From contig NZ_LT607802.1 of NCBI RefSeq assembly GCF_900090205.1, positions 2,036,554 through 2,100,553 of the forward strand: a stretch of 64,000 bases of DNA. The letters are read 5' to 3'. Below, one piece after another: positions 803-63,152 of the stretch. How positions within the stretch are numbered: the first letter of the stretch is position 1; each line of letters opens with the position of its first letter. This stretch comes from Vogesella sp. LIG4. GTDB lineage: Bacteria; Pseudomonadota; Gammaproteobacteria; Burkholderiales; Chromobacteriaceae. Below the pieces are notes generated by a model. The model was not told the origin of the DNA. It did not search any database and saw only the letters and a program-made list of their open reading frames with translations. The position numbers and the translations under genes were made by a program.

Positions 803-875
803 TGACAATTCAACCGGCGGCTGCGGCCAACGTTCGCAGCGCCAAATACCAGTTAAAAGCATAGGAAGATTCAAC

Positions 876-2786
876 ATGGGCAAAATCATCGGTATTGACC
901 TGGGCACCACCAACTCCTGCGTGGCAGTAGTGGAAGGCGGCCAGCCGAAAGTAATCGAAAACGCCGAAGGCGCACGCACCACCCCGTCCATCATTGCTTA
1001 CATGGAAGACGGCGAAATCCTGGTGGGCGCCCCGGCCAAGCGCCAGGCAGTAACCAACCCGAAGAACACCCTGTACGCGGTGAAGCGCCTGATCGGCCGC
1101 CGCTTCGAAGACAAGGAAGTACAGAAAGACATCGACCTGATGCCTTTCCAGATCAAGAAAGCCTCCAATGGCGATGCCTGGGTACAGGTACGCGACAAGG
1201 AAATGGCGCCGCCGCAGATTTCCGCCGAAGTGCTGCGCAAGATGAAAAAAGCCGCCGAGGACTACCTGGGCGAGGAAGTGACCGAAGCGGTCATCACCGT
1301 GCCGGCCTACTTCAATGACAGCCAGCGCCAGGCCACCAAGGATGCCGGCCGTATCGCCGGTCTGGAAGTGAAGCGCATCATCAACGAACCGACCGCTGCT
1401 GCGCTGGCCTTTGGCCTGGCCAAGCAGGAAGGTGACCGCAAGATCGCCGTATACGATCTGGGCGGCGGTACCTTCGACGTGTCCATCATCGAAATCGCCG
1501 ACGTAGACGGCGAGCACCAGTTCGAAGTGCTGTCCACCAACGGCGACACCTTCCTGGGCGGCGAAGACTTCGACCAGCGCGTGATCGACTACATCGTTAC
1601 CGAGTTCAAGAAAGACCAGGGCGTTGATCTGAAGAACGACGTAATGGCACTGCAGCGTCTGAAGGAAGCCGCGGAAAAGGCCAAGATCGAGCTGTCCTCC
1701 GCTACCCAGACCGAAGTGAACCTGCCGTACATCACCATGGATGCCACCGGCCCGAAACACCTGGCGATGAAGATCACCCGCGCCAAGTTCGAAAGCCTGG
1801 TGGATGACCTGATCGAGCGCTCCATCGAGCCGTGCCGCGTGGCACTGAAAGATGCCGGCGTATCGCTGGGCGACATCACCGACGTGATCCTGGTGGGCGG
1901 TCAGACCCGTATGCCGAAAGTACAGGAAGCCGTGAAGGCCTTCTTCGGTAAGGAGCCGCGCAAGGACGTGAACCCGGACGAAGCCGTGGCCGTGGGCGCT
2001 GCGATCCAGGGTTCGGTACTGTCCGGCGACCGCAAGGACGTACTGCTGCTGGACGTTACCCCGCTGTCGCTGGGTATCGAAACCCTGGGCGGCGTGATGA
2101 CCAAGCTGATCGCCAAGAACACCACCATCCCGACCAAGGCCTCGCAGACCTTCTCCACCGCCGACGACAACCAGACCGCGGTAACCATCCACGTGCTGCA
2201 GGGCGAGCGTGAAAAGGCTGCGGCCAACAAGTCGCTGGGCCAGTTCAACCTGGGCGACATCCCGGCTGCACCGCGCGGCGTGCCGCAGATCGAGGTTGAA
2301 TTCAACATCGACGCCAACGGCATCCTGCACGTGTCCGCCAAGGACAAGGCCAGCGGCAAGCAGGCCAACATCACCATCCAGGCATCCTCCGGTCTGTCCG
2401 AAGAGGAAATCCAGAAGATGGTGCGCGACGCCGAGCTGAACGCCGAGGAAGACAAGAAGCTGCACGAGCTGGTACAGGCCCGCAACCAGGGTGAAGGCCT
2501 GATCCACAGCGTGAAGAAATCGCTGACCGAATTCGGCGACAAGATCTCCGCCGACGAGAAGACCGCGATCGAAGCCGCGCTGAAAGAAGCCGAGGAAGTG
2601 ATCAAGAGCGACGACAAGGAAGCCATCGATGCCAAGGTAGAGGCACTGATGACCGCCTCGCACAAGCTGGCCGAGCACATGTACGCCGACAAGGGCGAGC
2701 AAGGTGCAGCCGAAGCCCAGCCGGCCGAAGGCAAGAAGGACGACGGCAACGTGGTCGATGCCGAATTCGAAGAAGTGAAGAAGTAA
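876..2786 (+). CDS. dnaK: Chaperone protein DnaK (Hsp70)
   Basis: ATP-dependent chaperone that binds exposed hydrophobic peptides and works with DnaJ and GrpE. It has 636 residues, full length. The nucleotide-binding domain starts with [12 protein letters not shown] and carries [12 protein letters not shown] and [10 protein letters not shown]. The linker ([13 protein letters not shown]) leads to the substrate-binding domain and helical lid. The tail ends EEVKK, a variant of the usual EEVKDKK. AGGAAG precedes the ATG. The expression context is a heat-shock operon. Confidence 0.98.
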
Positions 2787-2805
2787 GCTTTCTTACTGGC
2801 ATCAA

Positions 2806-2996
2806 TGCACAGCCCCGAGGGGCTGTGCAAAATTGCAGATAAAGCCCCGAAGCGTAGCGGAGGGGCTTTGTCGTGAAAACAGGAAGGCTGCCGAAGCAAC
2901 AGCTGATCAGGGGCGGTCCGGCTTTGCCGGGTCCGGTAGAAGCTGGGCATAGCGCTTTGTCCGCAGCCTGGCACAGGCCCTTCGGGGCGCTGTGCC
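2806..2996. repeat. Composite intergenic hairpin repeat, copy A (dnaK-dnaJ gap)
   Basis: Parts in order: a perfect terminator-like hairpin (2806-2829, GCACAGCCCC arm); a hairpin with AAAGCCCC/GGGGCTTT arms (2841-2869); AGGCTGC (2885-2891) pairing with GCAGCCT (2963-2969) around an inner CCGGC-TTT-GCCGG hairpin (2918-2930); and a closing hairpin (2971-2995) that again has GCACAG/CTGTGC arms and is followed by TTTT. The same architecture recurs at 5615-5968 and 26864-27043 with other outer-hairpin sequences. It may act as an attenuator between dnaK and dnaJ, which is inference. Confidence 0.75.
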
Positions 2997-3048
2997 TTTT
3001 CCTTGATATGCGGCCAACCTTTCATGGTTGGCGCAATGGTGATACAGC

Positions 3049-4218: not shown

Positions 4219-4276
4219 AATCGTTTGTATCGTTCACCCGCGCCGCCTGGCGGTGCGGCCAACCTGGAGCCCTTGC

Positions 4277-4471: not shown

Positions 4472-4518
4472 CACTTGTCTGCGTGCGGCCAACCTTGCGC
4501 CGCAACAAGAAAGCGTGA

Positions 4519-5595
<1,077 letters not shown>

Positions 5596-5968: not shown

Positions 5969-6034
5969 TTTTTCTTGCCGTTTGCAACCTGTTGTTACGT
6001 TGGCCGCGGCAAATGGCCGGATTGACCCCGTCAT

Positions 6035-8020: not shown

Positions 8021-9220
<1,200 letters not shown>

Positions 9221-10426: not shown

Positions 10427-10446
10427 TGCGGCCAACGTTGGCCGCA
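10427..10446. repeat. Head-to-head pair of uptake-like words after tdh
   Basis: TGCGGCCAACGTTGGCCGCA is a perfect 20-bp palindrome made of two copies of TGCGGCCAAC in opposite orientation, starting 6 bp after the tdh stop. Inverted pairs of DNA uptake sequences placed as terminator stems are a known feature of Neisseria and Haemophilus. Confidence 0.8.
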
Positions 10447-11546: not shown

Positions 11547-11769
11547 CGGCTCTGGTCCGGTTGGAAGCGGAGCACTTTACCATGAGCGCAAACGCTGTGA
11601 AGCTGACAATGATCATGGCATGTAGATAAATGTGTCTTTTGTATCGGAAATGTCATGAAGTGGCTGCCGGGGCCGCCGGGCGGTGCGGCCAACCGCAAAC
11701 GGTTTTCCCGTGATTGCGTAAACGGTTAGAATCCCTTTCTGTCTCTCAATCCATCAATCGTTTCGCCAC

Positions 11770-48656: not shown

Positions 48657-48675
48657 GCTTGCAATGTATAACAAT

Positions 48676-49104: not shown

Positions 49105-49128
49105 AAGAACCCCGCTAGCGGGGTTCTT
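49105..49128 (-). terminator. Intrinsic terminator of cbtB-cbtA
   Basis: A perfect palindrome (AAGAACCCCGC / GCGGGGTTCTT) followed on the minus strand by CTTTTTCC, 24 bp beyond the cbtA stop. Confidence 0.8.
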
Positions 49129-49151
49129 TGGCGAAGGGGCAGACTCCGAAC

Positions 49152-49895
49152 TCAGCTAATACGATAAGCGCTGTGCCGCTCTTCCAGCAGTCGTTCTACC
49201 AAGCTACCGAACAACACGCCCAGGCCGGTCCACAGTACTGCCTGGATACCAAACGAGGCCATCCGAAAGCGCCACAACAGCACGGCCGAGAACTGATCCG
49301 GAATCTCGTTCACCTCGGGTAATAGCCATTGAGCCAGCAGTACCAAGCCCAAGAACACCGCACTTGCGCTCAGCGTGGCGTTCCAGGTTCCAAAGCGTGC
49401 GGCGAGTTTTCGAGCGACAAACAACGCAATCGCCAGCGCTGCCAACGACAGGCCGATCATCGTGAAAAACAGCGCCGTACGTGAGCCGATGGTGCCAGGG
49501 TCGCCCACCGCCGGCGGATTGGGCGGGTACTTGAGGAAGGGGACGAGTACAAACGCGATGAAGCCGAACAGGGCCATCAGCATTGACGTAGCACGGGCAT
49601 ACAACGCGCCAATACGGCCATAAACAAAGGCGAATACCAGCGCAAACAGACCACCGACAGCGGTGCCAAATACCCCTACACCAATGAACAGGCCAATGCC
49701 GGACTGCACCTCGCGGCTGACTAGTTCTGGTGCGGCGTCATGCTCATGTGCGCCGCTTTTTGCCTGCTCCATTTGCATTTCAAAGGCAATTGCACGATCC
49801 ACCTGCGGTTCACCGACGACCTTGGCAAAACCAAACGCCAACAGGCTCGCCAGAAAGCCCGCGATCATGCCGCGGATCAGAAGACTCCTTACCAT
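49152..49895 (-). CDS. cbtA: CbtA-type cobalt transporter subunit
   Basis: 247 residues with about five to six hydrophobic segments. CbtA/CbtB pairs are predicted cobalt importers found behind B12 riboswitches. The periplasmic loop contains GAHEHDAAPELVSREVQSG with two His. It follows cbtB by 12 bp. It ends at a strong terminator. Confidence 0.88.
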   Translation of the reverse strand: MVRSLLIRGMIAGFLASLLAFGFAKVVGEPQVDRAIAFEMQMEQAKSGAHEHDAAPELVSREVQSGIGLFIGVGVFGTAVGGLFALVFAFVYGRIGALYARATSMLMALFGFIAFVLVPFLKYPPNPPAVGDPGTIGSRTALFFTMIGLSLAALAIALFVARKLAARFGTWNATLSASAVFLGLVLLAQWLLPEVNEIPDQFSAVLLWRFRMASFGIQAVLWTGLGVLFGSLVERLLEERHSAYRIS

Positions 49896-49907
49896 GATGG
49901 CCCCGCT

Positions 49908-50120
49908 TTAGTGGCAAGGGAAGCCGAGCAAGTGACGCCCATCATGGGCAAACTCGTGCACATACATGTTGTTGAAGATGGCGGCAGCCCCTTCTTCAAT
50001 ACCAACGAAGTAGATGGCCAAAAGCATGAGCATGCTGCCGAAAATCGCCCATGGCAGCAGTTCGCGAACAGGGATGGATACCGGTTGAATGGTCGGTGTG
50101 ATGGTGATGCTTGCGTGCAT
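49908..50120 (-). CDS. cbtB: CbtB-type cobalt transporter subunit
   Basis: 70 residues: one membrane segment (ELLPWAIFGSMLMLLAIYFVG) and a His-rich C-terminus (YVHEFAHDGRHLLGFPCH), the hallmark of CbtB, likely the metal-binding site. AAGGAG precedes the ATG. It lies directly behind the cobalamin riboswitch. Confidence 0.88.
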   Translation of the reverse strand: MHASITITPTIQPVSIPVRELLPWAIFGSMLMLLAIYFVGIEEGAAAIFNNMYVHEFAHDGRHLLGFPCH

Positions 50121-50164
50121 GATGTATCTCCTTGAGGATGACGCGTCCTGAAACGGATGAATGC

Positions 50165-50285
50165 TTCAATGTGAAGGTCTGACTTTTCAGCCTTATTCGT
50201 CGAAACGACGCATCAGGTTGATACACAGTGGCGCGACCGTGCCGGATTCTCACCAGCTTCTTCCCATCGAGGTGCTGTGCATTCT
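50165..50285 (-). promoter_or_regulatory. Cobalamin (B12) riboswitch controlling cbtBA
   Basis: On the minus strand the leader reads GGGAAGAAGCTGGTGAGAAT, CCGGCACGGTCGCGCCACTGTG, then AAGTCAG (the B12-box region), in the order and spacing of the cobalamin riboswitch core. It ends about 45 bp before cbtB. Adenosyl- or methylcobalamin binding would switch off the cobalt transporter. Recognised from conserved core words. Confidence 0.8.
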
Positions 50286-50340
50286 AGAGGGGCACACCGA
50301 CATGTCAAAGAACTTTGGCGATTGAAAGAGTGGTAACAGA

Positions 50341-50940
50341 ATGACGACGCGCATTACCTTGCTGTGCCTGCCGGCGACCTCGGCCCTGCGTGCCGGGCGG
50401 TTTCCGGCGGATGAGCCACTGGATCTCGAACAAGCCGAAAGCATTGCAGGCTTGGCCCATGTCTTCAGCCGCTCAGACCAGGTACTGTGCAGCCCGGCGC
50501 GCTGTGCTCAGCACACGGCCAGGGCATTGGGACTCGTGCCCACGATTGAGCCCGCTTTACGCGAAGTGAACTACGGGCGCTGGGCTGGGCTTTCACTCAA
50601 GGAGGTCGCTGTATCGGAGCCGCTTGAGATTGCCTCGTGGTTATCCGACCCGAAACTGGATTCACACGGCGGGGAGTCCTTAAACAGTGCAATCGAGCGG
50701 ATCAGCCAATGGCTCGAGCACTATGGCTGGGCACCTGGACATACGCTGATCATCACCCACGCCAGTGTAATCAAAGCAGTCATCCTGCATGTGCTGCGAG
50801 CCCCCAACCAAGCCTATTGGCAACTCGATATTGCGCCGCTAACGCAAACCATCCTGTCGGTACATCAAGATAAATGGCGCTTGCAGTCGAGTGGTGCTCC
50901 TGTACCTGCCGGGCAGCCAACGCGTGCAATTCGGCCCTAG
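50341..50940 (+). CDS. Degenerate CobC-like histidine phosphatase family protein
   Basis: 199 residues of the histidine phosphatase superfamily, nearest to alpha-ribazole phosphatase CobC. Recognisable elements: LCSPARCAQHTARAL, REVNYGRWAGLSLKEV, GGESLNSAIERI, LIITHASVIKAVI. The catalytic RHG motif at the N-terminus is replaced (LLCLPATSALRAGRF), so the phosphohistidine is missing while the second His is kept. It is divergent from cbtBA, consistent with a cobalt/B12 link but not with phosphatase activity. Confidence 0.78.
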   Translation: MTTRITLLCLPATSALRAGRFPADEPLDLEQAESIAGLAHVFSRSDQVLCSPARCAQHTARALGLVPTIEPALREVNYGRWAGLSLKEVAVSEPLEIASWLSDPKLDSHGGESLNSAIERISQWLEHYGWAPGHTLIITHASVIKAVILHVLRAPNQAYWQLDIAPLTQTILSVHQDKWRLQSSGAPVPAGQPTRAIRP

Positions 50941-51056
50941 CAGTCTTGCGACAGGTTGATGCATTTGCCTGTGACCGGACTGGAGGCCGAAACAAGCCTG
51001 GTCACCTGTAGTACCAAAAACGCCTTCGCGGTCTGACCTCTGCTTTCTTGTTTTTT

Positions 51057-51074
51057 CCTATCCCCCTGGATAGG
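51057..51074. promoter_or_regulatory. Operator of the metal sensor
   Basis: CCTATCC-CCCT-GGATAGG is an inverted repeat with a central C tract, 10 bp before the sensor gene, the form of operators bound by RcnR/CsoR-family repressors. Confidence 0.6.
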
Positions 51075-51084
51075 ATATTAAGCC

Positions 51085-51354
51085 ATGAGTACACATACCT
51101 CTCACCCCGACATCATCAAGCGGCTCAAGCGCGCCGATGGCCACCTCAAGAGCATCATTGCCATGCTCGAAGAAGGGCGTAGCTGCCTGGACATCGCCCA
51201 GCAGCTTCAGGCCGTCGAAAGTGCCGTCACCAATGCCAAGAAAATCCTGGTGCATGACCATATCGAGCACTGCCTGGAACATGCGGTGCGCGAGGGCCAG
51301 CAAAGCGCGGACGCTACCCTGCGCGAGTTCAAAGAGATCACCAAATACCTGTAG
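51085..51354 (+). CDS. Metal-responsive repressor of the CsoR/RcnR family (DmeR-like)
   Basis: 89 residues, all-helical DUF156 fold (IIKRLKRADGHLKSIIAMLEEGRSCLDIAQQLQAVESAVTNAKK, split by family motif). Candidate ligands are N-terminal His residues (H4, H7), C34, and H57/H59/H62/C63. This resembles nickel/cobalt sensors such as DmeR and RcnR rather than copper CsoR. It would repress the exporter gene that follows 63 bp downstream and its own promoter. Confidence 0.85.
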   Translation: MSTHTSHPDIIKRLKRADGHLKSIIAMLEEGRSCLDIAQQLQAVESAVTNAKKILVHDHIEHCLEHAVREGQQSADATLREFKEITKYL

Positions 51355-51417
51355 CGGGCGACCGTCCGGCGCGGCTACCCCATAACAGGGCAACTACCAG
51401 GCAAGTGAGAAATCGTC

Positions 51418-52467
51418 ATGAATTGGAAAGAAGGACTACGCCAGACTGGCGTGCCGGCAGCGCTGGGCGCAGCGCTGTTATTCGGCGCAGGCACGCCGTT
51501 TGCCAAGCTGCTGCTGCACAACGTGAACCCATGGTTGCTGGCCGGGCTGCTCTATCTGGGCTCTGGCGTTGGCCTGACACTGTACCGTCGCCTGATGCGA
51601 GCAGCTGCCGTCCATTTGCCGCGTCATGAAGCCCCATGGTTTATCGGGGCCATCGTATCGGGCGGTGTCATCGGGCCGGTGTTACTCATGCTGGGTCTGA
51701 CCGGGATGCCTGCTTCCGGGGCATCGCTGCTGCTCAATGCCGAGGGCGTGTTCACCGCGCTGCTGGCCTGGTTCGCCTTCAAGGAAAACTTCGACCACCG
51801 CATTGCGTTGGGGATGGTGGCCATTGTGGCCGGGGCTCTGATCCTGAGTTGGCCGGGAGAGGCGCGCTTCGCTGGCATGTGGCCGGCACTGGCGGTTGTT
51901 GGCGCGTGCTTCGCCTGGGGGATCGACAACAATCTGACGCGTAAAGTCTCCCTGACGGATGCAACCTGGATCGCCTCGGTAAAAGGGCTGGCGGCCGGCT
52001 CGGTCAATCTGGCCCTGGCGTTAATGTGGGGGGCTTCTCTGCCGCCGCTACCGAACCTCGGCGGGGCCATGCTCGTTGGCTTCCTTGCCTATGGTGTGAG
52101 CCTGGCGCTGTTCGTGGTCGCGCTGCGCCACCTCGGCACTGCCCGCACCGGGGCCTACTTCTCTGTCGCGCCGTTCTTCGGAGCACTGCTGGCGTTGGCC
52201 ATGGGGGAGTCGATCACGCTGCCCTTGTTGCTTGCAGGTGGTTTGATGGCGCTCGGCATCTGGCTGCACCTCACCGAACGCCACGAACATGAACACACAC
52301 ACGAAGCGTTGGAACATGAGCACGAGCATGTGCATGATGAGCATCACCAACATGACCATGACTATCCGGTCGCACCAGGCACCAAGCACCGTCATCGGCA
52401 TCGGCACGATGTGCTGACGCATGCCCACCCGCATTTCCCTGACTCTCATCACAGGCACAAACATTAA
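51418..52467 (+). CDS. DMT/EamA-type exporter with histidine-rich tail
   Basis: 349 residues. Ten membrane segments of two EamA repeats (residues about 10-283), then a C-terminal tail of about 65 residues with 24 histidines (HEHEHTH, HDEHHQHDHD, HRHRHRHD, HHRHKH). With the adjacent nickel/cobalt-type sensor, export of Ni2+ or Co2+ is the best guess. His-rich tails are typical of metal efflux proteins but unusual for the EamA family. Confidence 0.82.
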   Translation: MNWKEGLRQTGVPAALGAALLFGAGTPFAKLLLHNVNPWLLAGLLYLGSGVGLTLYRRLMRAAAVHLPRHEAPWFIGAIVSGGVIGPVLLMLGLTGMPASGASLLLNAEGVFTALLAWFAFKENFDHRIALGMVAIVAGALILSWPGEARFAGMWPALAVVGACFAWGIDNNLTRKVSLTDATWIASVKGLAAGSVNLALALMWGASLPPLPNLGGAMLVGFLAYGVSLALFVVALRHLGTARTGAYFSVAPFFGALLALAMGESITLPLLLAGGLMALGIWLHLTERHEHEHTHEALEHEHEHVHDEHHQHDHDYPVAPGTKHRHRHRHDVLTHAHPHFPDSHHRHKH

Positions 52468-52816
52468 AACTGTAGCTGTCCGCTTCGAGGGCAAGAGCGG
52501 ACGTTGCCTCGATGGAGGGAGTGTTTGCTTAGGGCCGAGTCCGGCCATTCGGGAAGTGGCAAGCGGTTTTTTCTGCCATCAACGGCTGAATAGAAGACGA
52601 CTGGCACATCGCATCAGGGTCTGACCACTGCCCCAAGGTCTGCTGTGACCGACCTACCACCCCCTTGCAAACCCTCGGCCAAAGTGACTATTTGGGCCGG
52701 ATACATTAATCGGCTGCTGTGCGGTGTTCACCAGCCATGGGGCAGTGGCTACGAGGCTAAGGCGAATCAGAACCAACTGCCTGTAGCAGGGTCCCTTCAA
52801 TGGAGGAGGAAAGTGT
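52468..52816. other. Gene-free stretch in the island
   Basis: No gene seen. It begins with a degenerate CTGTCCGCTT..AAGCGGACG inverted repeat (52478-52504) and ends with the GGAGGAGGAAAG ribosome binding site of the next gene. Confidence 0.4.
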
Positions 52817-53548
52817 ATGGGGCACATACTTATCTTGTTGCTAGGGATGCTGCTCTCTATTCCTGCCTGGTCCGGAACAATCACGGCAGTTGCCGATCCG
52901 TACCCGCCTTTCGTAGATGCTACGCAGCCAAAGCAAGGGATTTCCTTGCAAATTGTCCGAGCTGCGTATGCCACTCAAGGCTACGACATCGAGATGCACT
53001 TCGTACCCTGGGCCCGCGCGATCAATGCCGTAAAAGATGGCGAATACGATATCTTGCCAAATGCATGGTGGACACAAGAGCGAACAGCGTTCTTGCTGTA
53101 CAGCGCACCGTATCTCAAATCGGAAATCAAGTTCATCAAGCGTAAAGGTGATCCATTCGAGTACAGGGGTTTGGAAAGCCTGAACGGAAAGACGGTAGGT
53201 ATCGTTCGGGGATATGGCTATGGCGATGCCTTTCTCAAGGCTACCAACTTCACCCGTCCCGAGGTCGCGACTGTCATGCAAAACATTAAGAAGCTGCTCC
53301 TCGGCAGAATTGACCTGACTCTGGAGGACGAGATTGTAGTTCGCTCGATCATTAAGCATGATGCCCCAGAGCTACAACAACTGATCGAATTTACGCAGAA
53401 TCCCTTGTCCATTCAGGAGTTGCATGTCACTAGCGGCTTGAAGAACCCTCGGCACCAAGCCATCGTTGATGCGTTCAATAAGGGACTAGCTATCATCAAG
53501 GCGAATGGTACTTACGATAAAATTCTCATCGAAAACGATTTGGAATGA
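52817..53548 (+). CDS. Periplasmic solute-binding protein (SBP_bac_3 type)
   Basis: 243 residues: a signal peptide (residues 1-19, ...SIPAWS) followed by an amino-acid-binding-protein-like fold (ITAVADPYPPFVD, LQIVRAAYATQGYDIEMHFVPWARAINAVKDGEYDILPNA in two pieces, LNGKTVGIVRGYGYGD). Such stand-alone proteins occur with transporters or as sensors; no ABC permease is nearby. A strong ribosome binding site precedes the ATG. GC is lower than in core genes. Confidence 0.82.
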   Translation: MGHILILLLGMLLSIPAWSGTITAVADPYPPFVDATQPKQGISLQIVRAAYATQGYDIEMHFVPWARAINAVKDGEYDILPNAWWTQERTAFLLYSAPYLKSEIKFIKRKGDPFEYRGLESLNGKTVGIVRGYGYGDAFLKATNFTRPEVATVMQNIKKLLLGRIDLTLEDEIVVRSIIKHDAPELQQLIEFTQNPLSIQELHVTSGLKNPRHQAIVDAFNKGLAIIKANGTYDKILIENDLE

Positions 53549-54206
53549 TTGAATCGCCCCTCGTTTACTAGATACTCTTTTGGCCTCTGCCAACATATAA
53601 ACAGTCATTTTTCATCTGGCATGCGAAGGATCGCCGTCCTGCGGGGATGAGGGGGATTTTTATCGTTGCTGCCTGGCAAGAAGTACGCCGAGCGTACAGT
53701 AAAGGCTCCCCACCACCTTGTTCTGCCACTTGGTAACGGCTGCATTGCGTTGCAGAAAGATACCTATGCGCCCGGCAACAGTGGCATATCGCCCGCGACA
53801 ACGGCGGCATCATGCTTCAAAGCTGCCGTTTCCTGGTCATAACGGAGAACGACAGCTTGGGGTCGATACCTGGCGCAAGCCAAACGCATTCTACTCAGCC
53901 GAAGTACGCTGCCATGCTATTGTGCTAGCATGGCAGCTGACGGCCACAAGCGGACGTCGGGGAAATTGCTTCAAAGCAGCCGTAGGCAAGAGATGCTCAC
54001 AGGATTACCGTCGAAGTGTGAATGGCATAATCTCTGGGCCATTGGCTGCGCCACGTATGACTGCCATATATTCTCGTAGATATTGCCTGGAATCTTCTTA
54101 TCGCCTGTATCGGTAAGGCTTCCTAGCTGCTGTGCTATCCAGGATATACGGCGCCCTGACAGTGTTATGCAGCTGTAACGCCGTCTATTTTACGTTAGAG
54201 GTTGCA
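53549..54206. other. Gene-free stretch in the island
   Basis: No supported gene in 658 bp. A GCTTCAAAGCTGCC / GCTTCAAAGCAGCC repeat (about 53813 and 53968) and GCCATGCTATTGTGCTAGCATGGC hairpin parts (about 53911-53935) are visible, suggesting decayed mobile or intergenic material. Confidence 0.4.
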
Positions 54207-54602
54207 ATGGTTAAGCCTGTTATCATTTTGATTGCTTTTCTTTTTTCTACTGCAACGACTGGACAGGATTTGGGAAAAGAAATGCAATGCAGAAATGGCG
54301 GTGCATTGGTAATGGGTGCATGGCATCAGTTGTCTTTCTGTCTGCACTATCACAAATTAAACATAGGAAAAGTTTCGGAAGTAAGGCAGTTAGTTTCTAA
54401 AACATACCCCCAAATCGTCCAAGAAATAGACTCTGAGAGCGAACTATCATTGTCCATGAAGCAAATTGCTTATGCCTTACCTTTCGACTTTAGCAACAAC
54501 CAAAATGCAAACCTACTAGAAAGTATTTGTGAGTCATCAATAAGTGCCATGAACACTTATGTTGAACCAAACTGGCAAAAAGAATTGTCATGTTGGCAAT
54601 AA
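54207..54602 (+). CDS. Small exported protein, AT-rich, function unknown
   Basis: 131 residues with a signal peptide (MVKPVIILIAFLFSTATTG) and a mature part with four cysteines (MQCRNGG, SFCLHYHK, ESICESS, ELSCWQ). It is distinctly AT-rich with codons unlike the core genes, so it was probably acquired. GTTAGAG just before the gene and GCCTAAC 16 bp after the stop resemble integron cassette junction words. No family recognised. Confidence 0.6.
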   Translation: MVKPVIILIAFLFSTATTGQDLGKEMQCRNGGALVMGAWHQLSFCLHYHKLNIGKVSEVRQLVSKTYPQIVQEIDSESELSLSMKQIAYALPFDFSNNQNANLLESICESSISAMNTYVEPNWQKELSCWQ

Positions 54603-55105
54603 TCTCTACGCGCCGCAGCCTAACAAGGGCGTTAATCGTCCGCTTTTCAAAGCGGCGACTGTCGCCTTTGGGGCGGCAGCAGACGTAGTCACCAATTTCA
54701 GTGACTGTCTGCTTCGGCCGACCTGCTGCCGATCAAGCTGCATGAGTGGTAGATCGAAAGCATCATGTAAAGCATCAATCAGAGGAAGCTGATGCCATCC
54801 TGTTGGTAGGGCAGAACCGTGCCTTGTGTTTTCGACTTTAATTGACGCTTAGCGGGCGAACTTGGCCTGTGAAGCTGGCTTGTTTACGACTTTAGCTGTA
54901 TCCATTGCGAGGAGAGCTAGGCGGGACAAGGGGGCTTGTTTGCGACTTTAATCGGGCTGTGCAAATGCCTACAGGCGATAAGCAGGTTCGATAGCGGGCC
55001 TATGCCCCGTCCTGCCCGGGGTGCGGGAGCTGATTGTGGCCATGTGCCGGCTGGCGCCCGGCGGGGAAGGTGGGGCCGACCGAGTGGCCGACCCCGTGTT
55101 GCTGC
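54603..55105. repeat. Gene-free right end of the island with three boundary repeats
   Basis: Three copies of TGTTT(A/T/G)CGACTTTA(A/G) lie in the same orientation at 54827-54841, 54881-54895 and 54937-54951, spaced 54 and 56 bp. They are the reverse complement of the word at 48736-48750. Also present is a hairpin with AGTCAC/GTGACT arms (about 54686-54706). No gene was found. Confidence 0.6.
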
Positions 55106-55762
55106 TTACTTGCGCGGCATCGGCGTGGTGCGCAGGTAGGGCAGCTTGATGTCGAGGCTGCCGTATTTCTCGCGGGCCTGATCATCGTTGAGCGCCAGTG
55201 CCACGATGACATCCTCGCCCACCGTCCAGTTGGCCGGCGTGGCCAGCGGCACGTTGTAGGTCAGCTGCAGGGCGTCCAGCGCGCGCAGCACTTCGGCAAA
55301 GTTGCGGCCTACCGACATCGGGTAGGTCATCGACAGCTTGAGCTTCTTGTCCGGGCCGATGATGAACACCGAGCGCACGGTGGCGGTGTCGGCGGCGGTG
55401 CGGCCATCCGGCAGGTAGGCCTCGGCCGGCAGCATGTCGAAGGCCTTGGAAACCGCCAGGCCATGGTCGGCAATGATGGGGAAGCCGGCCTTGCTGCCGC
55501 CGTAGCTTTCGATGTCGAGCTTCCATTTGCGGTGCGCGTCGGCATCGTCCACCGATACGCCTATCACCTTGGTATTGCGACTGGCCCATTCATCCGCCAG
55601 CCTGGCAACGGCGCCGAATTCGGTGGTGCACACCGGGGTAAAGTCCTTGGGGTGGGAAAACAGGATCGCCCAGCCACTGCCTATCCAGTCGTGAAAACTG
55701 ATGCTGCCCTGGTCGGTGTCGGCGGTGAAATCGGGAACGGTATCGTTGATGCGCAGAGCCAT
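55106..55762 (-). CDS. 1-Cys peroxiredoxin (Prx6-type)
   Basis: 218 residues. The peroxidatic C45 in PKDFTPVCTTEFG is the only cysteine in the protein, so it is a true 1-Cys type needing an external thiol. The long C-terminal dimerisation extension (NWTVGEDVIVALALNDDQAREKYGS, split) is present. The start MALRINDTVPDF is the family N-terminus. Reduces hydroperoxides in the cytoplasm. It marks the return to core sequence. Confidence 0.93.
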   Translation of the reverse strand: MALRINDTVPDFTADTDQGSISFHDWIGSGWAILFSHPKDFTPVCTTEFGAVARLADEWASRNTKVIGVSVDDADAHRKWKLDIESYGGSKAGFPIIADHGLAVSKAFDMLPAEAYLPDGRTAADTATVRSVFIIGPDKKLKLSMTYPMSVGRNFAEVLRALDALQLTYNVPLATPANWTVGEDVIVALALNDDQAREKYGSLDIKLPYLRTTPMPRK

Positions 55763-56063
55763 GATCGAATCTCCGGTTGGTGGTGCGGCACGCAGGCTAT
55801 GTGCTGGCTGCCTGCGGCCAACGCCGGCACCGCTGGCGGCGGGTGTGTCCGCCACGGGGCCGGTCAAGCAAGCAGTATAGACAGGCACCGCGTGCAATCT
55901 AGTACGGTAACCCCGGGGATGCGCCTTGTTCGCCGCCTACTCCCAATGGCCTGTTTCGCCGCCGAAAAATTATCGATAATGTCCAGACTGGCGCCCCGCA
56001 CCTTGCGCGCGCGGGAGTAATATGCCGGCAATTTCAAATGCGGCTTTTATTTACAAGTAAACA
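55763..56063. other. Divergent promoter region between peroxiredoxin and sensor genes
   Basis: Contains an uptake-like word (55814-55822) and a perfect 12-bp palindrome ATTATCGATAAT (55969-55980) that could be a regulator site for either divergent gene. No gene seen. Confidence 0.4.
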
Positions 56064-59000
56064 GTGGCGAGTAGTGCTATTCAGGGTAATAACAACGTAC
56101 AGGCCATGACACCGACTCTGACTGTAGCAAGTCCGTCCAAGCAGGCGCCGCGGCACTGGCTGCTGACAACGCTGTTGCTCGGCGCGGCCTATGTGGTCTG
56201 CGGCAAGCTCGGTTTGCTGCTGGCCATTCCCCCCGGCTATGCCTCCGCCATTTTCCCGCCAGCGGGTATCGCGGTGGCGGCTGCATTCATGATCGGGCGG
56301 CGCGCCATACCCGGCGTGCTGCTGGGTTCTTTCATTCTCAATCTGTGGATTGCCTACGACAGCAGCCATCAGCTGAGCCTGCTGGGCGGCTGCGCTGCCT
56401 TGCTGATTGCGGTGGCTTCGCTGCTGCAGGCGCTGCTGGGCGGTGCGCTGTTGCGCCGGGTGGTGGGCTACCCGGCCGCATTCGATAATCTGCGCGATGT
56501 GCTGAGCTTCCAGCTGCTGTCGCCGCTGATCTGCCTGACCAGCGCCACGCTGTCGGTGAGCAGCCTGCAGCTGCTGGGCCTGGTGGTGCCCGGCGGCTTC
56601 GCGCTGAGCTGGTTCATGTGGTGGGTCGGCGACACCCTGGGCCTGCTGGTGCTGGTACCGCTGACCATGGTGGTGGCCGGCGCGCCGCGCCCGCTGTGGC
56701 GCAAGCGCTTTGGCACCGTGGCCGTACCGATGCTGTTCGCCTTTACGCTGCTGGTGATCCTGTATGTCAACGTCAGCCACTGGGAGCAGGCGGAGTCGCT
56801 GGTGGAGTTCCGGCTGCAGTCGCAGCGGCTGGCCGATACCATGCAGGCGCGGCTGGACGAGCAGGAGTCGCTGCTGGAGCAGACCAAGGGGCTGTTTGCC
56901 GGCGACGACCGGGTCACGGCGGAAGAATTCCACCAGTTCACCCGCCAGGCGCTGAAGCGTTTTCCCATGATCCAGGCCATCGAGTGGGCGCCCAGGGTGG
57001 AAGGGGGGCGGCGGGCGCAGTTCGAGGCCGAGCAGCGGCCGCGCGTGCCCGGCTTCCAGGTGCGGGAGCGGGATGCGGCCAACGTTTTGCAGCCTGCCGC
57101 GCGGCGGGCTGCACATTACCCGGTCACTTTCGTCGAGCCGCTGGCCGGCAACCAGCCGGCGCTGGGTTTTGACATCGTGTCCACGCCCAACCGCGCGGCG
57201 GCGGTGGCCAAGGCGATCAGCAGCGGCCGCAGTGTGGCAACGCCGCCGCTGCACCTGGTACAGGCTCCCAGCCACCCGTTCGGCTTTCTGCTGCTGCAGG
57301 CGGTGTCCACCGAGCATACCGGCAACGGCATCGTGCTGACCGCCATTCGCGTCGATGACTTCCTGGCCAAGCTGCTGCCGCACGACAAGGCGCAGCTGTG
57401 CATCCGCCTTACCGACAGCGGCACGGGGCAGGTGGTGCACAATAATTTTGTCTCCCCGGACAAAATCGTCTGGCAGCAGCAGCTGGCGTTCGGCCAGCGT
57501 GTATTGCTGCTGGAAACCAGCCCCAGCCCGGCCTATCTGGCGCAGCACCGCGGCTGGCAGAGCCCGCTGGTGCTGGCGGCCGGCATCCTGGGTACCGGCC
57601 TGCTGGGCGCCTTTCTCATGCTAGGCACCGGCTATACCGCCCGGGTCGAGGCGCAGGTGGAGGAGAAAATCGCCGAGCTGTCGGAAAGCAGCGAGAAGCT
57701 GACCGGCCTGTACCAGCTGTCGCCGCTGGGCATTGCGCTTACCGATATGGGTGGTCGCTTCATCGACTTCAACGAGGCCTTCCTGCGTATCTGCGGCTAC
57801 CCGGAGGCGGAGCTGCGCGCGCTGGACTACTGGACGCTGACGCCGCGCCGCTACGAGGCCGACGAGGCAGCGCAGCTGGCATCGCTGCAGCGTAGCGGCC
57901 GCTACGGGCCGTACGAGAAGGAATACCTGCGCAAGGATGGCAGCCTGGTACAGATCAGCCTGAACGGGCTGCTGCTGAACGGGCGCAATGGCGAGAAGTA
58001 CATCTGGTCCATCGTGGAAGACATTACCGAGCGCAAGCAGGCCGAAGCCACGCTGCGCGACAGCGAGGAGCGCTGGAAATTTGCGCTGGAGGGCGCCGGT
58101 GACGGTGTCTGGGACTGGAACCTGCAAACCGGCGAGCTGTACCTGACCAAGCGGGAGATGGAGGTTCTGGGCTTCGAAGGTGAAGAAGCGCAATGGACCC
58201 ATATCGACCACTGGGCAGACCGCCAGCACCTGCAGGACAAGGTGGTACGCAAGCTCGCGTTCGACAACTACCTGGCCGGCAAGGCACCGGTCTACAGCTA
58301 TGAATTCCGCACCCGCACCCGCGATGGCCGCTGGAAGTGGGTGCTGGCGCGCGGCATCCTGGTGAGCCACAGCGCGGATGGCCGGCCGCTGCGCATGATC
58401 GGCACCCATACCGATATCGACGAGCGCAAGCGCCAGCAGGCGCAGGATGCCCGGCGCAGCGCGGTGATGGAGATGCTGGCCCGCGGCGGCAAGCTGCACG
58501 ATGTGCTGGAGACCCTCATCGCCAGCCTGGAAGTGGAAAACGACGAACTGACCTTCATGGTATTCAGCCAGGAAGCCGGCGAGCAGCCGGGCGGGCAGGG
58601 GCGCCACCTGCCGATGAACTGGTTCGACAACCCCGGGCTGGACAAGGTGCGCGGCGGCAGCGCCCTGCTGCGCGGCACGCCGCACGAGCAGCCGATTACC
58701 AGCAGCAGCTATCTGCGCAGCCTGCAGGCGCAGGCGCAGTCGATGCGGCTGGAGCTGTGCTGGTCGGAGCCCATCGTCTCCGGTGATGCCACGCTGGAAG
58801 GGGTGCTGGTGTCGTTCCGCAACCCGGCGGAAAACCATGCCTTGCCCGACCTGCTGCAACAGCAGCAGGCGGCCAACCTGCTCAGTATCGCCATCCAGCA
58901 CGAACGGGTGGAGCAGCAGCTGCAGCTGGCCAATTCGGTGTATGTCACCAGCAGCGAAGCCATTGTGGTGACCAGCGAAGACAACCTGATCCTGGCCGTC

Positions 59001-59925: not shown

Positions 59926-61209
59926 TTAGGCCAGCAGCTTGCGCTCGGCCTTGCCGTACTTCAGCGATTTCTCGTCCGGCAGCATCAGGCCGGTATGCTC
60001 GTCGCGGCCCTGCAGGATGAAGCGCGCCTGCGGGGTGCCAAGCTGCTCTGCGGCCAACTTGCTGTCGGCGCCGATCTCGCCTTTCTTCATGCGGTTCACG
60101 ATCACGCCCACCGAGGTGTCGGCGAAGTCGCGCAGCATCCAGGCATCGCCGTCGCTGTCGCCGGCTACCAGCACCGGGCCGTAGCCCTTGGCGGCCACCA
60201 GCACGTTGCGGATGCCCACGGTCTTGCCCGGGCCCCAGTTGAAATGCCAGCCTGCCTTGTAGTTATCGGTGTATTTGCCATCCTGCATTTCCAGGCGCAG
60301 GCCGATCACGTTCTCCGCCGGCACGCCATAGCCGTAGTTGGGGTGGCCGGCGAACACGCGTACCACGTCGTCGATCGAGGCGGTGCTGACATACACATCG
60401 ATGCCGTTGCTGCGCAGCGCATTCATCAGCGCGCGGATTTCTTCATGGATGCGGATGCCGTGGAAATGGGTATCGGCTACCACGCCGGCCTTGCCTGGCA
60501 GTGTTTTCGGGCTTTCGTACTTCACCTTGCGCAGCGCATCGCCGATGTCGTGGTTGTTCGAGGCCTCGGCCATGGCCTGCAGCTCGGCGGTGCTCATGTT
60601 CTTGTAGAAGTAGATGATCCACTTGTAGCCGATTTCCAGCGGATGGGTGTCACAGATGGCGTCGTACATGAAGTACAGCTTGGCGCGGAAATCCTTGAAC
60701 TGATCGCTGGCCTGGATCTCCTCCAGGCTCATGCTGCCGGCCAGACCCTTGTAGTTGGCATGCAGCCAGCGGTAATCGGCCTCCACGTCGGCAGCCAGGT
60801 CGTCCATCGTCACCGGCTTGCCGTCCACCGTGGTGTAGTCCTTCATGAACGGGCCCTTGGGCACGTCCTTCCACATGACTTCCACGAACTCATCCGGCGT
60901 CAGCTTGTACTGCAGATGGTTGATCTGGTACATCAGCAGCGCTTCTTCGCAGTCGTTCATGATGCAGGTGTTGTCCCAGTCGAACACCGCGTACGGGCGC
61001 TTGTTGGCGTTGTAGTGCTTGCTCTTCACGCCGTGCTCGTCCAGCACCAGCTGCAGGCGTTTGGCGTTGAGCGGCGACCAGCGCGCCGGGTCCAGCGTGG
61101 GGGCGCTGAGCTGGGTGGTCGTGGCGGCCTGGGCCTGACCGGCCTTGAGCAACACGGTACTGCTGACGGATACGGCGGCAAGGGTATTCAGAAACTGGCG
61201 ACGCTGCAT
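59926..61209 (-). CDS. Tat-exported HAD-family phosphatase
   Basis: 427 residues. A twin-arginine signal (MQRRQFLNTLAAVSV...GQAQA) directs the folded enzyme to the periplasm. HAD motif I is FDWDNT (D77, D79) and the C-terminal motif is AGDSDGDAWML. The overall form resembles phosphorylcholine phosphatase of Pseudomonas, so a small phosphate ester is the likely substrate. It is divergent from a DeoR-family regulator, which may control it. Confidence 0.85.
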   Translation of the reverse strand: MQRRQFLNTLAAVSVSSTVLLKAGQAQAATTTQLSAPTLDPARWSPLNAKRLQLVLDEHGVKSKHYNANKRPYAVFDWDNTCIMNDCEEALLMYQINHLQYKLTPDEFVEVMWKDVPKGPFMKDYTTVDGKPVTMDDLAADVEADYRWLHANYKGLAGSMSLEEIQASDQFKDFRAKLYFMYDAICDTHPLEIGYKWIIYFYKNMSTAELQAMAEASNNHDIGDALRKVKYESPKTLPGKAGVVADTHFHGIRIHEEIRALMNALRSNGIDVYVSTASIDDVVRVFAGHPNYGYGVPAENVIGLRLEMQDGKYTDNYKAGWHFNWGPGKTVGIRNVLVAAKGYGPVLVAGDSDGDAWMLRDFADTSVGVIVNRMKKGEIGADSKLAAEQLGTPQARFILQGRDEHTGLMLPDEKSLKYGKAERKLLA

Positions 61210-61446
61210 GTTGACTCTCCCTGTGTAGGACCCGGTGGTGGGCGGTGATCGGCCGGCGCGGCAAGCGGCGCACGACGCATACATTGAAGAGCATAATCGC
61301 GCATCATTTCCACAAAATTACACAAATGCCACAAATTGACACATCGCGGCCGTAACATCGACGCGACACTTTGCCGTCGGCACTGGCTTGACAGCCCGCT
61401 GGCGACCGACACAATGCCTGCAACGACATTCCGAATGGAGCCTGCC

Positions 61447-62220
61447 ATGTGGCAAGAAGAGCGCTACCAGCGCATCCGCAGCCTGCTGCACAGCCTGCAG
61501 CGCGTCAGTACCGAGCGCATCGTGGCCGAGCTTGGCGTTTCGCGCGAAACGGTGCGCCGCGACCTGGTGGCCATGGAGCAGCTGGGGCAGCTCAAGCGCA
61601 CCCATGGCGGCGCGATCCGTATCGAGGATGAGGCGCCGATTGCCGAGCGGGCGCAGCAGAACGTGCAGGCCAAGCGCCTCATCGCCCGCGCCGCACTGGC
61701 CGAGCTGGCGCACGGGCAGACCGTGTTCGTCGATGCCGGCACCACCACCGCGATCCTGGCCGAGGAGCTGGCCAGGTTCGGCGGTCTGACCGTGATCACC
61801 AATTCCTTCGACGTGGCGCTGACGCTGCGCGATGCCGCCAGCAGCGAGGTGCCGTGCAACCAGGTGGTGGTGCTGGGCGGCTCGCTGGGCGAGCGTGCGC
61901 CGTCCACGCTGGGTGCCGGCACGGTGGCCGAGATCGGCCGCTACCGCGCCGACGTGGCGCTGATTTCGCCGGTGGGGGTGGAGGCGGCGCGCGGCGCCAG
62001 CAACTACGACCACCAGGAAGCCGCAGTGGCGCGCGCGATGGTGGATAACGCCAGCCGCGTGGTGATGCTGGCCGACAGCAGCAAGCTGGGCGTGGGCAGC
62101 CGGGTGGTGTTCTGCGCGCCGGAGCGCATCGACACCCTGATTACCGAACGCAGCGCCGGCAGCGTGCCGGCGCTGGCGGAACTGGCGGCAAAGGTTGGCC
62201 GCATCGTGCAGGCCGGCTAG
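61447..62220 (+). CDS. DeoR-family transcriptional regulator
   Basis: 257 residues: N-terminal helix-turn-helix (RVSTERIVAELGVSRETVRRDLVAMEQLG, split) and sugar-phosphate-sensing domain (FVDAGTTTAILAEELA, VVLGGSLGERAPSTLG, LADSSKLGVGS). The ATG at 61447 follows GGAG by six bases, better placed than the ATG at 61435. Divergent from the HAD phosphatase; ligand unknown. Confidence 0.87.
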   Translation: MWQEERYQRIRSLLHSLQRVSTERIVAELGVSRETVRRDLVAMEQLGQLKRTHGGAIRIEDEAPIAERAQQNVQAKRLIARAALAELAHGQTVFVDAGTTTAILAEELARFGGLTVITNSFDVALTLRDAASSEVPCNQVVVLGGSLGERAPSTLGAGTVAEIGRYRADVALISPVGVEAARGASNYDHQEAAVARAMVDNASRVVMLADSSKLGVGSRVVFCAPERIDTLITERSAGSVPALAELAAKVGRIVQAG

Positions 62221-63152
62221 CTGGCCGCGCCGGATTCGGCCGCCGCACCCTGGCGCGCCAGGAAGCTGCGGTAGAAGGTGATGAAGGCGCGCGCCGCCGG
62301 CGGCGTATGGCGGCCCGGCGGGAGCACGGCGTACAGCCCGCCCTTGGGCAGCGACCATTGCGGCAGCAGATGCACCAGCCGGCCGGCAGCCAGATCCTGG
62401 CGGATGCTGTAGTGATCGAGCACGGAAATGCCGGCCCCTTGCAGCAGCAGCGCCCGCAGCGAGGTACTGGAGTCCACCCGTAGCCGGGACTGCATGCGCA
62501 CCGTGCGCAGGCCGCCATCGGCGGCGTGGAAAGTCCAGGTCAGCGGCGTGCGCATCAGGGTGAATGCCACCCAGTTGTGCCCGGCCAGCTGCTCCGGTGT
62601 GTCCGGCACGCCGTGGCTGCGCAGATAGCCGGGGGAGGCCACCAGCCGCTGCTCGAACTCCCCCAGCCTCACGGCGCGCAGCGAGGAGTCGCGCAGCGCC
62701 CCCAGGCGGATGGCGACATCGATGCCTTCCGCCACCAGGTCCACCACCTGGTCGCTGGTATGCAGATCCAGCTGCAGCGACGGGTGCAGGCTGGCGAACT
62801 CGGTCACGGCCGGCGACAGCGACTGCATGAAATGGTCGATGGGGGCGGTCAGGCGCAGCGTGCCGCCCAGGGCGGTATCGCTGCGGCCAACCTGCTGCAG
62901 CGCATCGCGCAGCACCAGCAGGGCCGGCTGGGCCTGCGCCAGCAATGCCTGCCCGGCATCGGTCAGCCGTACCTGCCGCGTGGTGCGGGTGAACAGCGGC
63001 ACGCCCAGCTGGGTTTCCAGCCGCGAGATATGCAGGCTGACATTGGCCTTGGTCATGCCCAGCCGCTCGGCCGTGGTGGTGAAGCTGCCGCTGTCCGCCA
63101 CGGTGGCAAACACTTGCAGGCCGTTCAGGTTGTCCAGCAGATTGCGTTTCAT
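62217..63152 (-). CDS. LysR-family transcriptional regulator
   Basis: 311 residues with an N-terminal winged helix-turn-helix (LQVFATVADSGSFTTTAERLGMTKANVSLHISRLE, split) and a periplasmic-binding-like effector domain. It is divergent from the NAD(P)-binding protein gene at 63295, the usual arrangement for a LysR regulator and its target. Its stop overlaps that of the DeoR gene by 4 bp. Confidence 0.9.
   Translation of the reverse strand: MKRNLLDNLNGLQVFATVADSGSFTTTAERLGMTKANVSLHISRLETQLGVPLFTRTTRQVRLTDAGQALLAQAQPALLVLRDALQQVGRSDTALGGTLRLTAPIDHFMQSLSPAVTEFASLHPSLQLDLHTSDQVVDLVAEGIDVAIRLGALRDSSLRAVRLGEFEQRLVASPGYLRSHGVPDTPEQLAGHNWVAFTLMRTPLTWTFHAADGGLRTVRMQSRLRVDSSTSLRALLLQGAGISVLDHYSIRQDLAAGRLVHLLPQWSLPKGGLYAVLPPGRHTPPAARAFITFYRSFLARQGAAAESGAAS

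Follow-up and report, generated by a model that had tools for sequence, protein, structure and literature searches.

The word in the Vogesella window

The 64-kb stretch of Vogesella chromosome analyzed here (the window) includes dnaK, a gene read as dnaJ, and cobalt-transporter and metal-repressor genes, and carries the 9-mer GCGGCCAAC 52 times, 30 on the plus and 22 on the minus strand. This recount is identical to that of an earlier sequence-only reading of the same DNA; 100 dinucleotide shuffles, used as background, gave a mean of 2.37 and a largest count of 7. A T precedes 46 of the 52 copies, as that reading had also stated, to give the 10-mer TGCGGCCAAC. The features are as follows (copies are of TGCGGCCAAC unless stated otherwise):

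822..831, plus, copy upstream of dnaK (876-2786); exact in 5/6 alignable other Vogesella
2219..2228, plus, copy within dnaK; exact in only 4/12 other Vogesella
3009..3018, plus, copy between dnaK and gene 3049-4173 (dnaJ in the sequence-only reading); exact in 11/12 other Vogesella
4254..4263, plus, exact word match
4484..4493, plus, copy; exact in 7/10 alignable other Vogesella
5241..5250, plus, copy; exact in 5/11 alignable other Vogesella
10427..10446, plus and minus, inverted back-to-back pair; perfect 20-bp palindrome, convergent genes either side
11684..11693, plus, exact word match
13272..13281, plus, exact word match
14871..14880, plus, exact word match
15150..15159, minus, exact word match
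17354..17363, plus, exact word match
17786..17795, minus, exact word match
19389..19398, minus, exact word match
19498..19534, minus then plus, inverted pair; T-run adjoining, terminator-like
19935..19944, minus, exact word match
21073..21082, minus, exact word match
21195..21204, plus, exact word match
24623..24632, minus, exact word match
25192..25201, minus, exact word match
25428..25437, plus, exact word match
26460..26469, minus, exact word match
28307..28316, plus, exact word match
30146..30155, minus, exact word match
30416..30425, plus, exact word match
31464..31473, plus, exact word match
32342..32351, plus, exact word match
33146..33155, plus, exact word match
35295..35304, plus, exact word match
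37145..37154, plus, exact word match
37624..37633, minus, exact word match
39970..39979, plus, exact word match
41596..41605, minus, exact word match
44361..44370, minus, exact word match
44463..44472, plus, exact word match
45218..45227, plus, exact word match
46749..46758, minus, exact word match
47367..47376, minus, exact word match
48237..48246, plus, final copy ahead of the word-free stretch
48247..55812, no strand, word-free stretch of 7.6 kb; GC 0.57, cobalt-transporter and metal-repressor genes
55813..55822, plus, first copy past the word-free stretch
57074..57083, plus, exact word match
60049..60058, plus, exact word match
62194..62203, minus, exact word match
62882..62891, plus, exact word match
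5999..6007, minus, GCGGCCAAC without leading T, probably background
9194..9202, minus, GCGGCCAAC without leading T, probably background
23055..23063, minus, GCGGCCAAC without leading T, probably background
26092..26100, minus, GCGGCCAAC without leading T, probably background
28270..28278, minus, GCGGCCAAC without leading T, probably background
58869..58877, plus, GCGGCCAAC without leading T, probably background

On the 3' side of the 9-mer, C (26/52) or G (19/52) is followed by T (36/52) and T (27/52). The (C/G)TT extension proposed earlier is only partly borne out: the signal past the 10-mer is weak (C 0.56, T 0.50, T 0.56 in single copies) and the G variant is partly due to back-to-back palindromic pairs. 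A first base other than T before GCGGCCAAC is rare (C 19, G 12 and A 5 in 464 kb), as are single-letter variants of TGCGGCCAAC. With codon-model gene calls made in the present analysis, 21 of the 46 10-mers in the window are intergenic, 24 are genic and one straddles a boundary, the uniform expectation being 11.9 intergenic; this is close to the figure of about 23 copies between genes given previously, and the copy described as lying just upstream of dnaJ indeed falls in the gap that precedes that gene. When the sites are followed across 12 other Vogesella genomes, 34 of the 54 alignable cells keep the word unchanged, as compared to 35% for 10-mers of like GC.

Abundance and dialects in the Chromobacteriaceae

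A count over the full genome, which the sequence-only reading had proposed as a check, bears out the excess: TGCGGCCAAC occurs 2,895 times (1437 and 1458 by strand), while the reversed word occurs 8 times (4 on each strand). It is the top 10-mer in a 40-kb sample, and is present in 1,871-2,895 copies in all 13 Vogesella genomes searched and in 8-58 copies in the 48 other Chromobacteriaceae genomes searched.

Rather than the single new word first described, TGCGGCCAAC is one of at least three dialects in the Chromobacteriaceae. Dialects were detected de novo in samples of at most 40 kb and then counted genome-wide, yielding TTCGGCCAAC in sister genera (183-2,168 copies per genome in 8 genomes) and CTCGGCCAAC in genus g5 (1,590 and 1,940 copies in 2 genomes); the same scan recovered known-type DNA uptake sequence (DUS) words in both Neisseriaceae controls. 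These dialects differ from the Vogesella word by one or two letters. All three have CGGCCAAC in common, and a CT(T) tail on the 3' side that is directional but weak, the CT extension being weak in genome G057 (C 0.31, T 0.46). TTCGGCCAAC is probably the ancestral dialect of the family.

Methylation-linked repair might instead maintain such a word, as a HIP1-like iterated sequence or as the site of a restriction-modification system or an orphan methylase. The word contains GGCC, its one-letter variants are rare, and cyanobacterial HIP1, which is likewise short and highly iterated, is tied to orphan methylases in an excerpt of PMC4390886. HIP1, however, is the palindromic GCGATCGC, whereas the Vogesella word is an asymmetric 10-mer with a directional tail, and dialects that change at one end beside a constant CGGCCAAC would better fit a receptor site. 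We consider this explanation improbable.

Placement on the chromosome

In 400 kb, 100 of 309 copies of TGCGGCCAAC are intergenic versus 57.6 expected, and convergent gene ends are favored, with 37 of 98 intergenic copies in gaps that make up 15% of intergenic bases. Inverted pairs separated by less than 60 bp number 30 in 464 kb, 10 of them perfect 20-bp palindromes, and direct pairs number 0. Two inverted pairs lie in the window, one of them beside a T-run, in keeping with the terminator stems noted earlier; the link to terminators is nevertheless modest, since a T-run adjoins 8 of the 30 pairs as compared to 9% of control spots.

In the 0.86 Mb read for islands, no TGCGGCCAAC occurs in a 38.3-kb integrase/ParB/BREX-like island or in a 13.3-kb glycan cluster. 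The word is depleted in these two acquired-looking islands, which are also lower in GC. A gap like the one at 48247..55812 is expected 0.2 times per window by chance, and that stretch is possibly acquired DNA.

Thousands of genome-wide, genus-specific copies would also be expected of a chromosome-organizing or recombination motif of the Chi, KOPS or matS type, retained because replication or segregation requires it. Chi and KOPS favor one strand, whereas the word is equally distributed between strands both in the whole genome and in its first 400 kb (164/145), and neither inverted pairs at convergent gene ends nor absence from whole islands would be anticipated for such a motif, making this origin quite unlikely. 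The inverted pairs and palindromes bring to mind a palindromic repeat, either small and mobile or of the REP type; however, 295 of 355 copies in 464 kb lie outside such pairs and flank conservation is slight past about +12, some three bases beyond TGCGGCCAAC, indicating that these are not copies of a longer repeat and rendering a repeat origin very improbable. Finally, generation of the word by Ala-Ala-Asn codon or amino-acid preference and high GC is ruled out: the frame bias that the sequence-only reading had named as a possible refutation is present (87 of 117 sense genic copies in 400 kb), yet 60 synonymous-codon shuffles of 464 kb yielded 8.2 +/- 2.6 genic copies (maximum 14) versus 233 observed, so that frame preference is not the source, and both the intergenic enrichment and the scarcity of the word in the 48 other genomes of the family, whose GC is partly similar, speak against it.

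Probable relation to neisserial uptake sequences and a candidate receptor

Uptake words have been described from the Neisseriaceae and Pasteurellaceae. The Pasteurellaceae USS, of the AAGTGCGGT type, is unrelated to the Vogesella word but resembles it as a short, abundant self-DNA word, and is tied to natural transformation; its receptor is predicted, in an excerpt of PMC12616744, to be another minor pilin, ComN/PpdA.

The closest system is the neisserial DUS (AT-DUS, AG-DUS, mucDUS, simDUS, kingDUS, king3DUS, eikDUS and wadDUS), whose receptor is ComP. In both systems a 10-mer core has, on its matching strand, a preferred AG dinucleotide at the 5' side; the copies number about 2,000 and are balanced between strands, inverted pairs occur where genes end, and dialects differ at the genus level. 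The sequence-only reading had called the word unlike the Neisseria type; read on the opposite strand, however, the family is (AG-)GTTGGCCGxx, and the Vogesella form AG-GTTGGCCGCA and sister dialect AG-GTTGGCCGAA align position by position with Neisseria dialects, which is suggestive rather than proof. In a comparison with seven of the eight dialects, the TTC dialect (TTCGGCCAAC) matches mucDUS and simDUS at 9/12 positions, a score reached by 0.0099 of 20,000 shuffles, while the matches of the Vogesella word (8/12, 0.081) and the CTC word (8/12, 0.062) are weaker. The Vogesella word shares C at +9 with king3DUS. The host family differs, and so do the words, GTTGGCCG(AA/CA/AG) as opposed to GCCGTCTGAA types: positions +6 to +8 are CCG in all three Chromobacteriaceae dialects, and +10 is A in two and G in genus g5, so that none of the three combines CTG at +6 to +8 with A at +10. 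CTG at +6 to +8 was found in all eight neisserial dialects (Frye 2013) and, in an excerpt of a 2024 Neisseriaceae genome survey (PMC11316581), in all of seven further candidate 12-mers. The TGA stop noted in every dialect except king3DUS (Frye 2013) is lost here because CCG replaces CTG. The same study examined five genomes of Laribacter, Lutiella, Pseudogulbenkiania and Chromobacterium and reported that none had an obvious DUS. The Chromobacteriaceae word family and the neisserial DUS are probably homologous, CCG in the former standing in place of CTG.

The competence genes that the sequence-only reading had suggested looking for are present. A ComP-like minor pilin gene was found in 23/23 word-rich genomes among 61 of the family; it does not discriminate, since 34/38 word-poor genomes carry it too. 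ComEC (59/61 genomes, 11/13 Vogesella) and DprA (61/61) are not diagnostic, because these families also match in 10/14 and 11/14 control genomes, respectively. The top PDB matches of three ComP-like proteins and two profiles are neisserial ComP (2m3k, 5hz7, 2nba); two other Vogesella pilins match PilE/PilA and no ComP. The protein of the window genome scores 23.8 bits on Pfam ComP_DUS, under the 27.3 cut-off, while the other eight members of alignment A2 (42-65 bits) and six further Vogesella copies (36-50 bits) pass it. In 5/5 Vogesella loci read, the gene and an aroB-(183 aa)-secretin cluster are no more than ~1 kb apart; at other loci it sits next to PilY1, or polA and an MFS gene flank it. 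Neisserial ComP has two disulfides, of which one ties the DD loop to beta-1; by contrast, all 10 aligned ComP-like proteins share the C-terminal cysteine pair only and have no cysteine at the beta-1 position; the match to 2nba stops at residue 101 of 119, leaving out the final part of the DD-loop region. The candidate receptors may therefore have another way of binding DNA, or none.

Genus-wide, strand-balanced abundance, an excess that codon use does not account for, inverted pairs at gene ends, the lack of copies in acquired-looking islands and a ComP-like candidate lend good support to the DUS-like element first proposed, and TGCGGCCAAC is very likely the DNA uptake sequence of Vogesella, one dialect of a Chromobacteriaceae family within the ComP/DUS system. 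We infer three things: binding of the word by ComP, a bias in uptake, and common descent with the neisserial words. The minor type IV pilin ComP would bind the word outside the cell as a label of self DNA, allowing naturally competent cells to import DNA from within their genus preferentially; such uptake, followed by recombination, would keep the word and spread it around the chromosome. Evenly balanced, in our judgment, is a longer history whereby ComP/DUS predates the Neisseriaceae/Chromobacteriaceae split. Receptor and word would have drifted in step across the supposedly invariant CTG core (CCG here) as a DNA-contacting loop lost a disulfide, leaving a single continuous series of at least 11 dialects (eight described, three here) in two families, with the word lost repeatedly in lineages such as g2, g3 and g4.

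With a second word family, which has dialects of its own and a reduced ComP, questions of how self-DNA recognition arose and changes become testable: which receptor residue reads each base, how a whole-genome label is switched and what becomes of the label once recognition is lost. If uptake holds true, the word would provide a practical key to Vogesella and Gulbenkiania genetics.

Abundance and placement of the word in Vogesella

The sequence-only reading had claimed 52 copies of the 9-mer GCGGCCAAC in the 64-kb window, and a recount returned that number, 30 on the plus strand and 22 on the minus strand, against a mean of 2.37 and a maximum of 7 in the dinucleotide-shuffled window. The T extension also held, as a T precedes 46 of the 52 9-mers to give the 10-mer TGCGGCCAAC. 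In the source genome, a single contig of 4,147,242 bases with the window at C1:2036554-2100553, TGCGGCCAACSTT occurs 477 + 483 times on the two strands and its reversed control 0 + 0 times.

Enrichment between genes had been proposed, and the window's 46 copies of the 10-mer indeed divide into 24 genic, 21 intergenic and one straddling. Over 400 kb, 309 copies comprise 208 genic, 100 intergenic and one straddling, with 57.6 intergenic expected; these intergenic shares are rough, as the codon-model gene calls miss genes of unusual composition. Convergent genes flank 37 of 98 intergenic copies in the 400 kb, while such regions make up 15% of intergenic bases. Within 464 kb, 30 inverted pairs and no direct pairs lie less than 60 bp apart; 12 of the inverted pairs are between convergent genes, 11 between tandem genes, one between divergent genes and six within genes. 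Ten of the 30 form perfect 20-bp palindromes, and a T-run adjoins eight of the 30, compared with 9% of random intergenic spots.

Codon usage had been named as the point to check. The sense genic copies do prefer the Ala-Ala-Asn frame (87 of 117), but a codon-driven excess is ruled out by synonymous shuffles: 233 genic copies in 464 kb compare with 8.2 ± 2.6 (maximum 14) in 60 such shuffles. A mobile repeat is made unlikely by unconserved flanks, since the surroundings of 295 single copies hold little shared sequence past the 3' CTT.

The window also contains other repeats. A search of 464 kb of the genome with an intergenic repeat of about 130 bp at 9232-9363 gave seven matches, one being the repeat itself; many more, at about 80-88%, are among the matches listed in Vogesella sp. 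LIG4 and its congeners. A scan of the window against Rfam gave no match. A second dispersed repeat lies at 5615-5968, 2841-2972 and 26880-27032, the first of these holding two tandem copies 165 bp apart and 95% alike.

Distribution and sister dialects

Among 61 genomes of the Chromobacteriaceae (G-numbers; genera are numbered g2-g10), TGCGGCCAAC is present at 1,871-2,895 copies, near-equal between strands, in 13 of 13 Vogesella genomes and at 8-58 copies in the 48 others, with the reversed control at 3-26 across all 61. The closest relatives by DnaK (window 876-2786) are V. oryzae, V. margarita and V. aquatica (93-96% identity), where the 13-mer occurs 717, 1,356 and 568 times, respectively; it occurs 0-1 times in 17 other named genomes, including Gulbenkiania, Chromobacterium, Crenobacter, Paludibacterium, Laribacter, Snodgrassella and Neisseria. 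Across a sample of 399 genomes of the order, in which the family is represented by 13 genomes only, GGTTGGCCGMA was counted 1,171-1,520 times in six Vogesella, 962 times in G058 and 635 times in G030, and at most 30 times (control 27) in the remainder.

De novo scans for over-represented 9- and 10-mers were run on 11 sets, 15-40 kb from each of ten named genomes and the source genome, and then on 20-40 kb from each of 11 further genomes. Both Neisseriaceae controls returned DUS-type words, the Snodgrassella giving TTCAGGCAGC/TCAGGCAGCC and the Neisseria giving TCAGACGACC. A TTC dialect, TTCGGCCAAC, emerged in Gulbenkiania mobilis, G030, G057, G058, G065 and G066, and weakly in G056 (20 kb), and a CTC dialect, CTCGGCCAAC, emerged in G054 of genus g5. 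No such word was found in Chromobacterium haemolyticum, TC5R-5, Crenobacter, Paludibacterium, Laribacter (16 kb only) or Chitinibacter, nor in 20-40 kb each of G022, G051, G059 and G045; Andreprevotia yielded a tandem-type repeat rather than such a word.

Whole-genome counts of the TTC dialect are 1,368 in G030, 579 in G056, 2,168 in G057, 1,245 in G058 (Gulbenkiania mobilis), 1,851 in G065, and 1,104, 183 and 893 in G066-G068, with 8-78 copies in the other 53 of the 61 genomes. The CTC dialect reaches 1,940 copies in G054 and 1,590 in G055, and 13-165 in the other 59. The 61 genomes divide into 23 that are word-rich and 38 that are word-poor (nine g2, 19 g3, four g4 and six g8). Slightly raised TTC/CTC counts in G060 (62/92) and G063 (45/85), both g8, and in G067 of g10 (183/55) are possibly relics of a decaying uptake-word system.

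The three dialects have CGGCCAAC in common, together with a weaker 3' C-T(-T) that is weakest in G057. Read from the other strand they become AG-GTTGGCCGAA, AG-GTTGGCCGCA and AG-GTTGGCCGAG, the same AG-10-mer layout as the neisserial dialects. Each word was compared with seven neisserial dialects on either strand at offsets of -2 to +2. The TTC dialect is identical to mucDUS and simDUS at 9 of 12 ungapped positions, a match equalled by a fraction of 0.0099 of 20,000 word shuffles; the Vogesella and CTC words reach 8 of 12, with shuffle figures of 0.081 and 0.062. According to Frye 2013 (PMC3630211), all eight neisserial dialects have CTG at +6 to +8 and A at +10. The Chromobacteriaceae words have CCG at +6 to +8 instead, and by the CTG definition the word is therefore set apart from the neisserial DUS family; the C at +9 in the Vogesella word is the same change as in king3DUS. 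The same study (PMC3630211) reports a TGA stop inside every dialect except king3DUS, whereas none of the three Chromobacteriaceae words contains a complete stop codon in any of the six frames, so that they may spread more easily in genes. The Chromobacteriaceae words most likely work like neisserial DUS.

Among the literature matches listed, from a search with subscription journals and preprints outside its scope, no title or abstract start describes this word family. Table S1D of Frye 2013, which lists over-represented 10-mers in five genomes without obvious DUS, may already hold a dialect. The single CGGCCAAC of PMC3868556 is a PCR primer, and passages of PMC6546665 and PMC11316581 present Neisseriaceae words only.

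Word-free stretches and site conservation

Stretches devoid of the word were sought in 0.86 Mb of the Vogesella sp. LIG4 genome (contig C1), window included. In the longest, C1:610892-649238 (38.3 kb, GC 0.55), an integrase gene sits about 1 kb in from the left end, and further genes encode ParB-like, helicase, Eco57I-type methylase and BrxC-type proteins (loci L299-L301); of 13 ORFs scanned, four lacked any match. By its gene content it is a predicted BREX-like defence island. The second, C1:659623-672945, has a GC of 0.44, and the five ORFs scanned there encode sugar epimerases or glycosyltransferases; two more stretches measure 9.6 and 9.5 kb (GC 0.52-0.53). With a word every 1.4 kb, the two longest stretches should hold about 27 and 9 copies, respectively; lower GC confounds this absence. 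The window itself has no words at 48247-55812 (GC 0.57), where CbtA is encoded along with a metal repressor and transporters. The low-GC cluster at 48700-55000 encodes a CbtA cobalt transporter, a metal-sensitive repressor, a solute-binding protein and an EamA transporter with a histidine-rich tail.

Nine word sites were followed in the 12 other Vogesella genomes. In the 54 alignable cells of 108, the other 54 being set aside, 34 sites are exact, 13 have one change and seven have more; comparison 10-mers with seven G/C are exact in 35%.

A candidate receptor and a possible history of the dialects

ComP, a minor type IV pilin, is the DUS receptor of Neisseria. ComP-like minor pilins were located by tblastn with g5, g6 and g7 proteins as queries, which gave the following Vogesella candidate:

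L131:1420-1839, candidate ComP-like pilin of Vogesella, 139 aa (tblastn)

In the PDB it matches the ComP structures 2m3k, 5hz7 and 2nba best, and so do the g5 and g7 proteins and alignment profiles A2 and A3. A protein search with it found five proteins, the query among them. In the source genome, the two strongest Pfam ComP_DUS matches (72.6 and 53.8 bits) were rejected as ComP on their PDB matches to PilE/PilA; the retained candidate scores below both. Since 60 of 61 genomes exceed its cut-off, Pfam ComP_DUS has no value as a marker among the Chromobacteriaceae.

Profile A2 gave a near-full-length match of at least 87 bits in 57 of 61 genomes, nine of which had contributed rows to the profile itself; the G065 (g9) pilin of alignment A1 had been omitted from A2 as doubtful, and a better G065 match scores 124.8 bits. 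The four genomes without a match, one of them Crenobacter intestini, all belong to g4 and are word-poor. A ComP-like gene is thus found in 23 of 23 word-rich genomes, but also in 34 of 38 word-poor ones, so that its association with the word is by itself weak; one g8 copy (G059) has an internal stop. ComEC (59 of 61) and DprA (61 of 61) are not diagnostic.

Neighbours were named by Pfam on one member per gene family, the others being assigned by BLAST. In g6, G022 and G030 the gene has polA on one side and an MFS efflux gene on the other; it adjoins PilY1 in Gulbenkiania and G066, and in five of five Vogesella loci it lies about 1 kb or less from a cluster of aroB, a 183-aa gene and a secretin gene. 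A minor pilin that by eye is FimT/GspH-like stands upstream of comP in Vogesella and g6 (L131, L187, L188), where these pilins have a KSNLDLQGC-type stretch in common; it is a possible partner of ComP. The beta-1 cysteine that holds the DD loop in Neisseria ComP is absent from ten of ten aligned proteins; PMC12061091 reports both ComP disulfides as crucial for DUS binding.

A ComEC tree of 18 of 20 rows (G054 and G056 are missing, as the longest frame chosen was not ComEC, and the G065 row covers 33% of columns) groups G030, a TTC genome, with two word-poor g2 genomes at support 98/93, over a backbone without resolution. This grouping and the wide spread of TTC suggest that it is the ancestral dialect, which probably changed in Vogesella and in g5 and was lost from g2, g3 and g4.

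Taken from sequence, the word most likely serves as a DNA uptake sequence that ComP, on type IV pili, would recognise. ComP would bind the word, and biased uptake together with recombination would maintain it, which would explain its genus restriction, strand balance, tight sequence, pairs at gene ends and absence from new islands.
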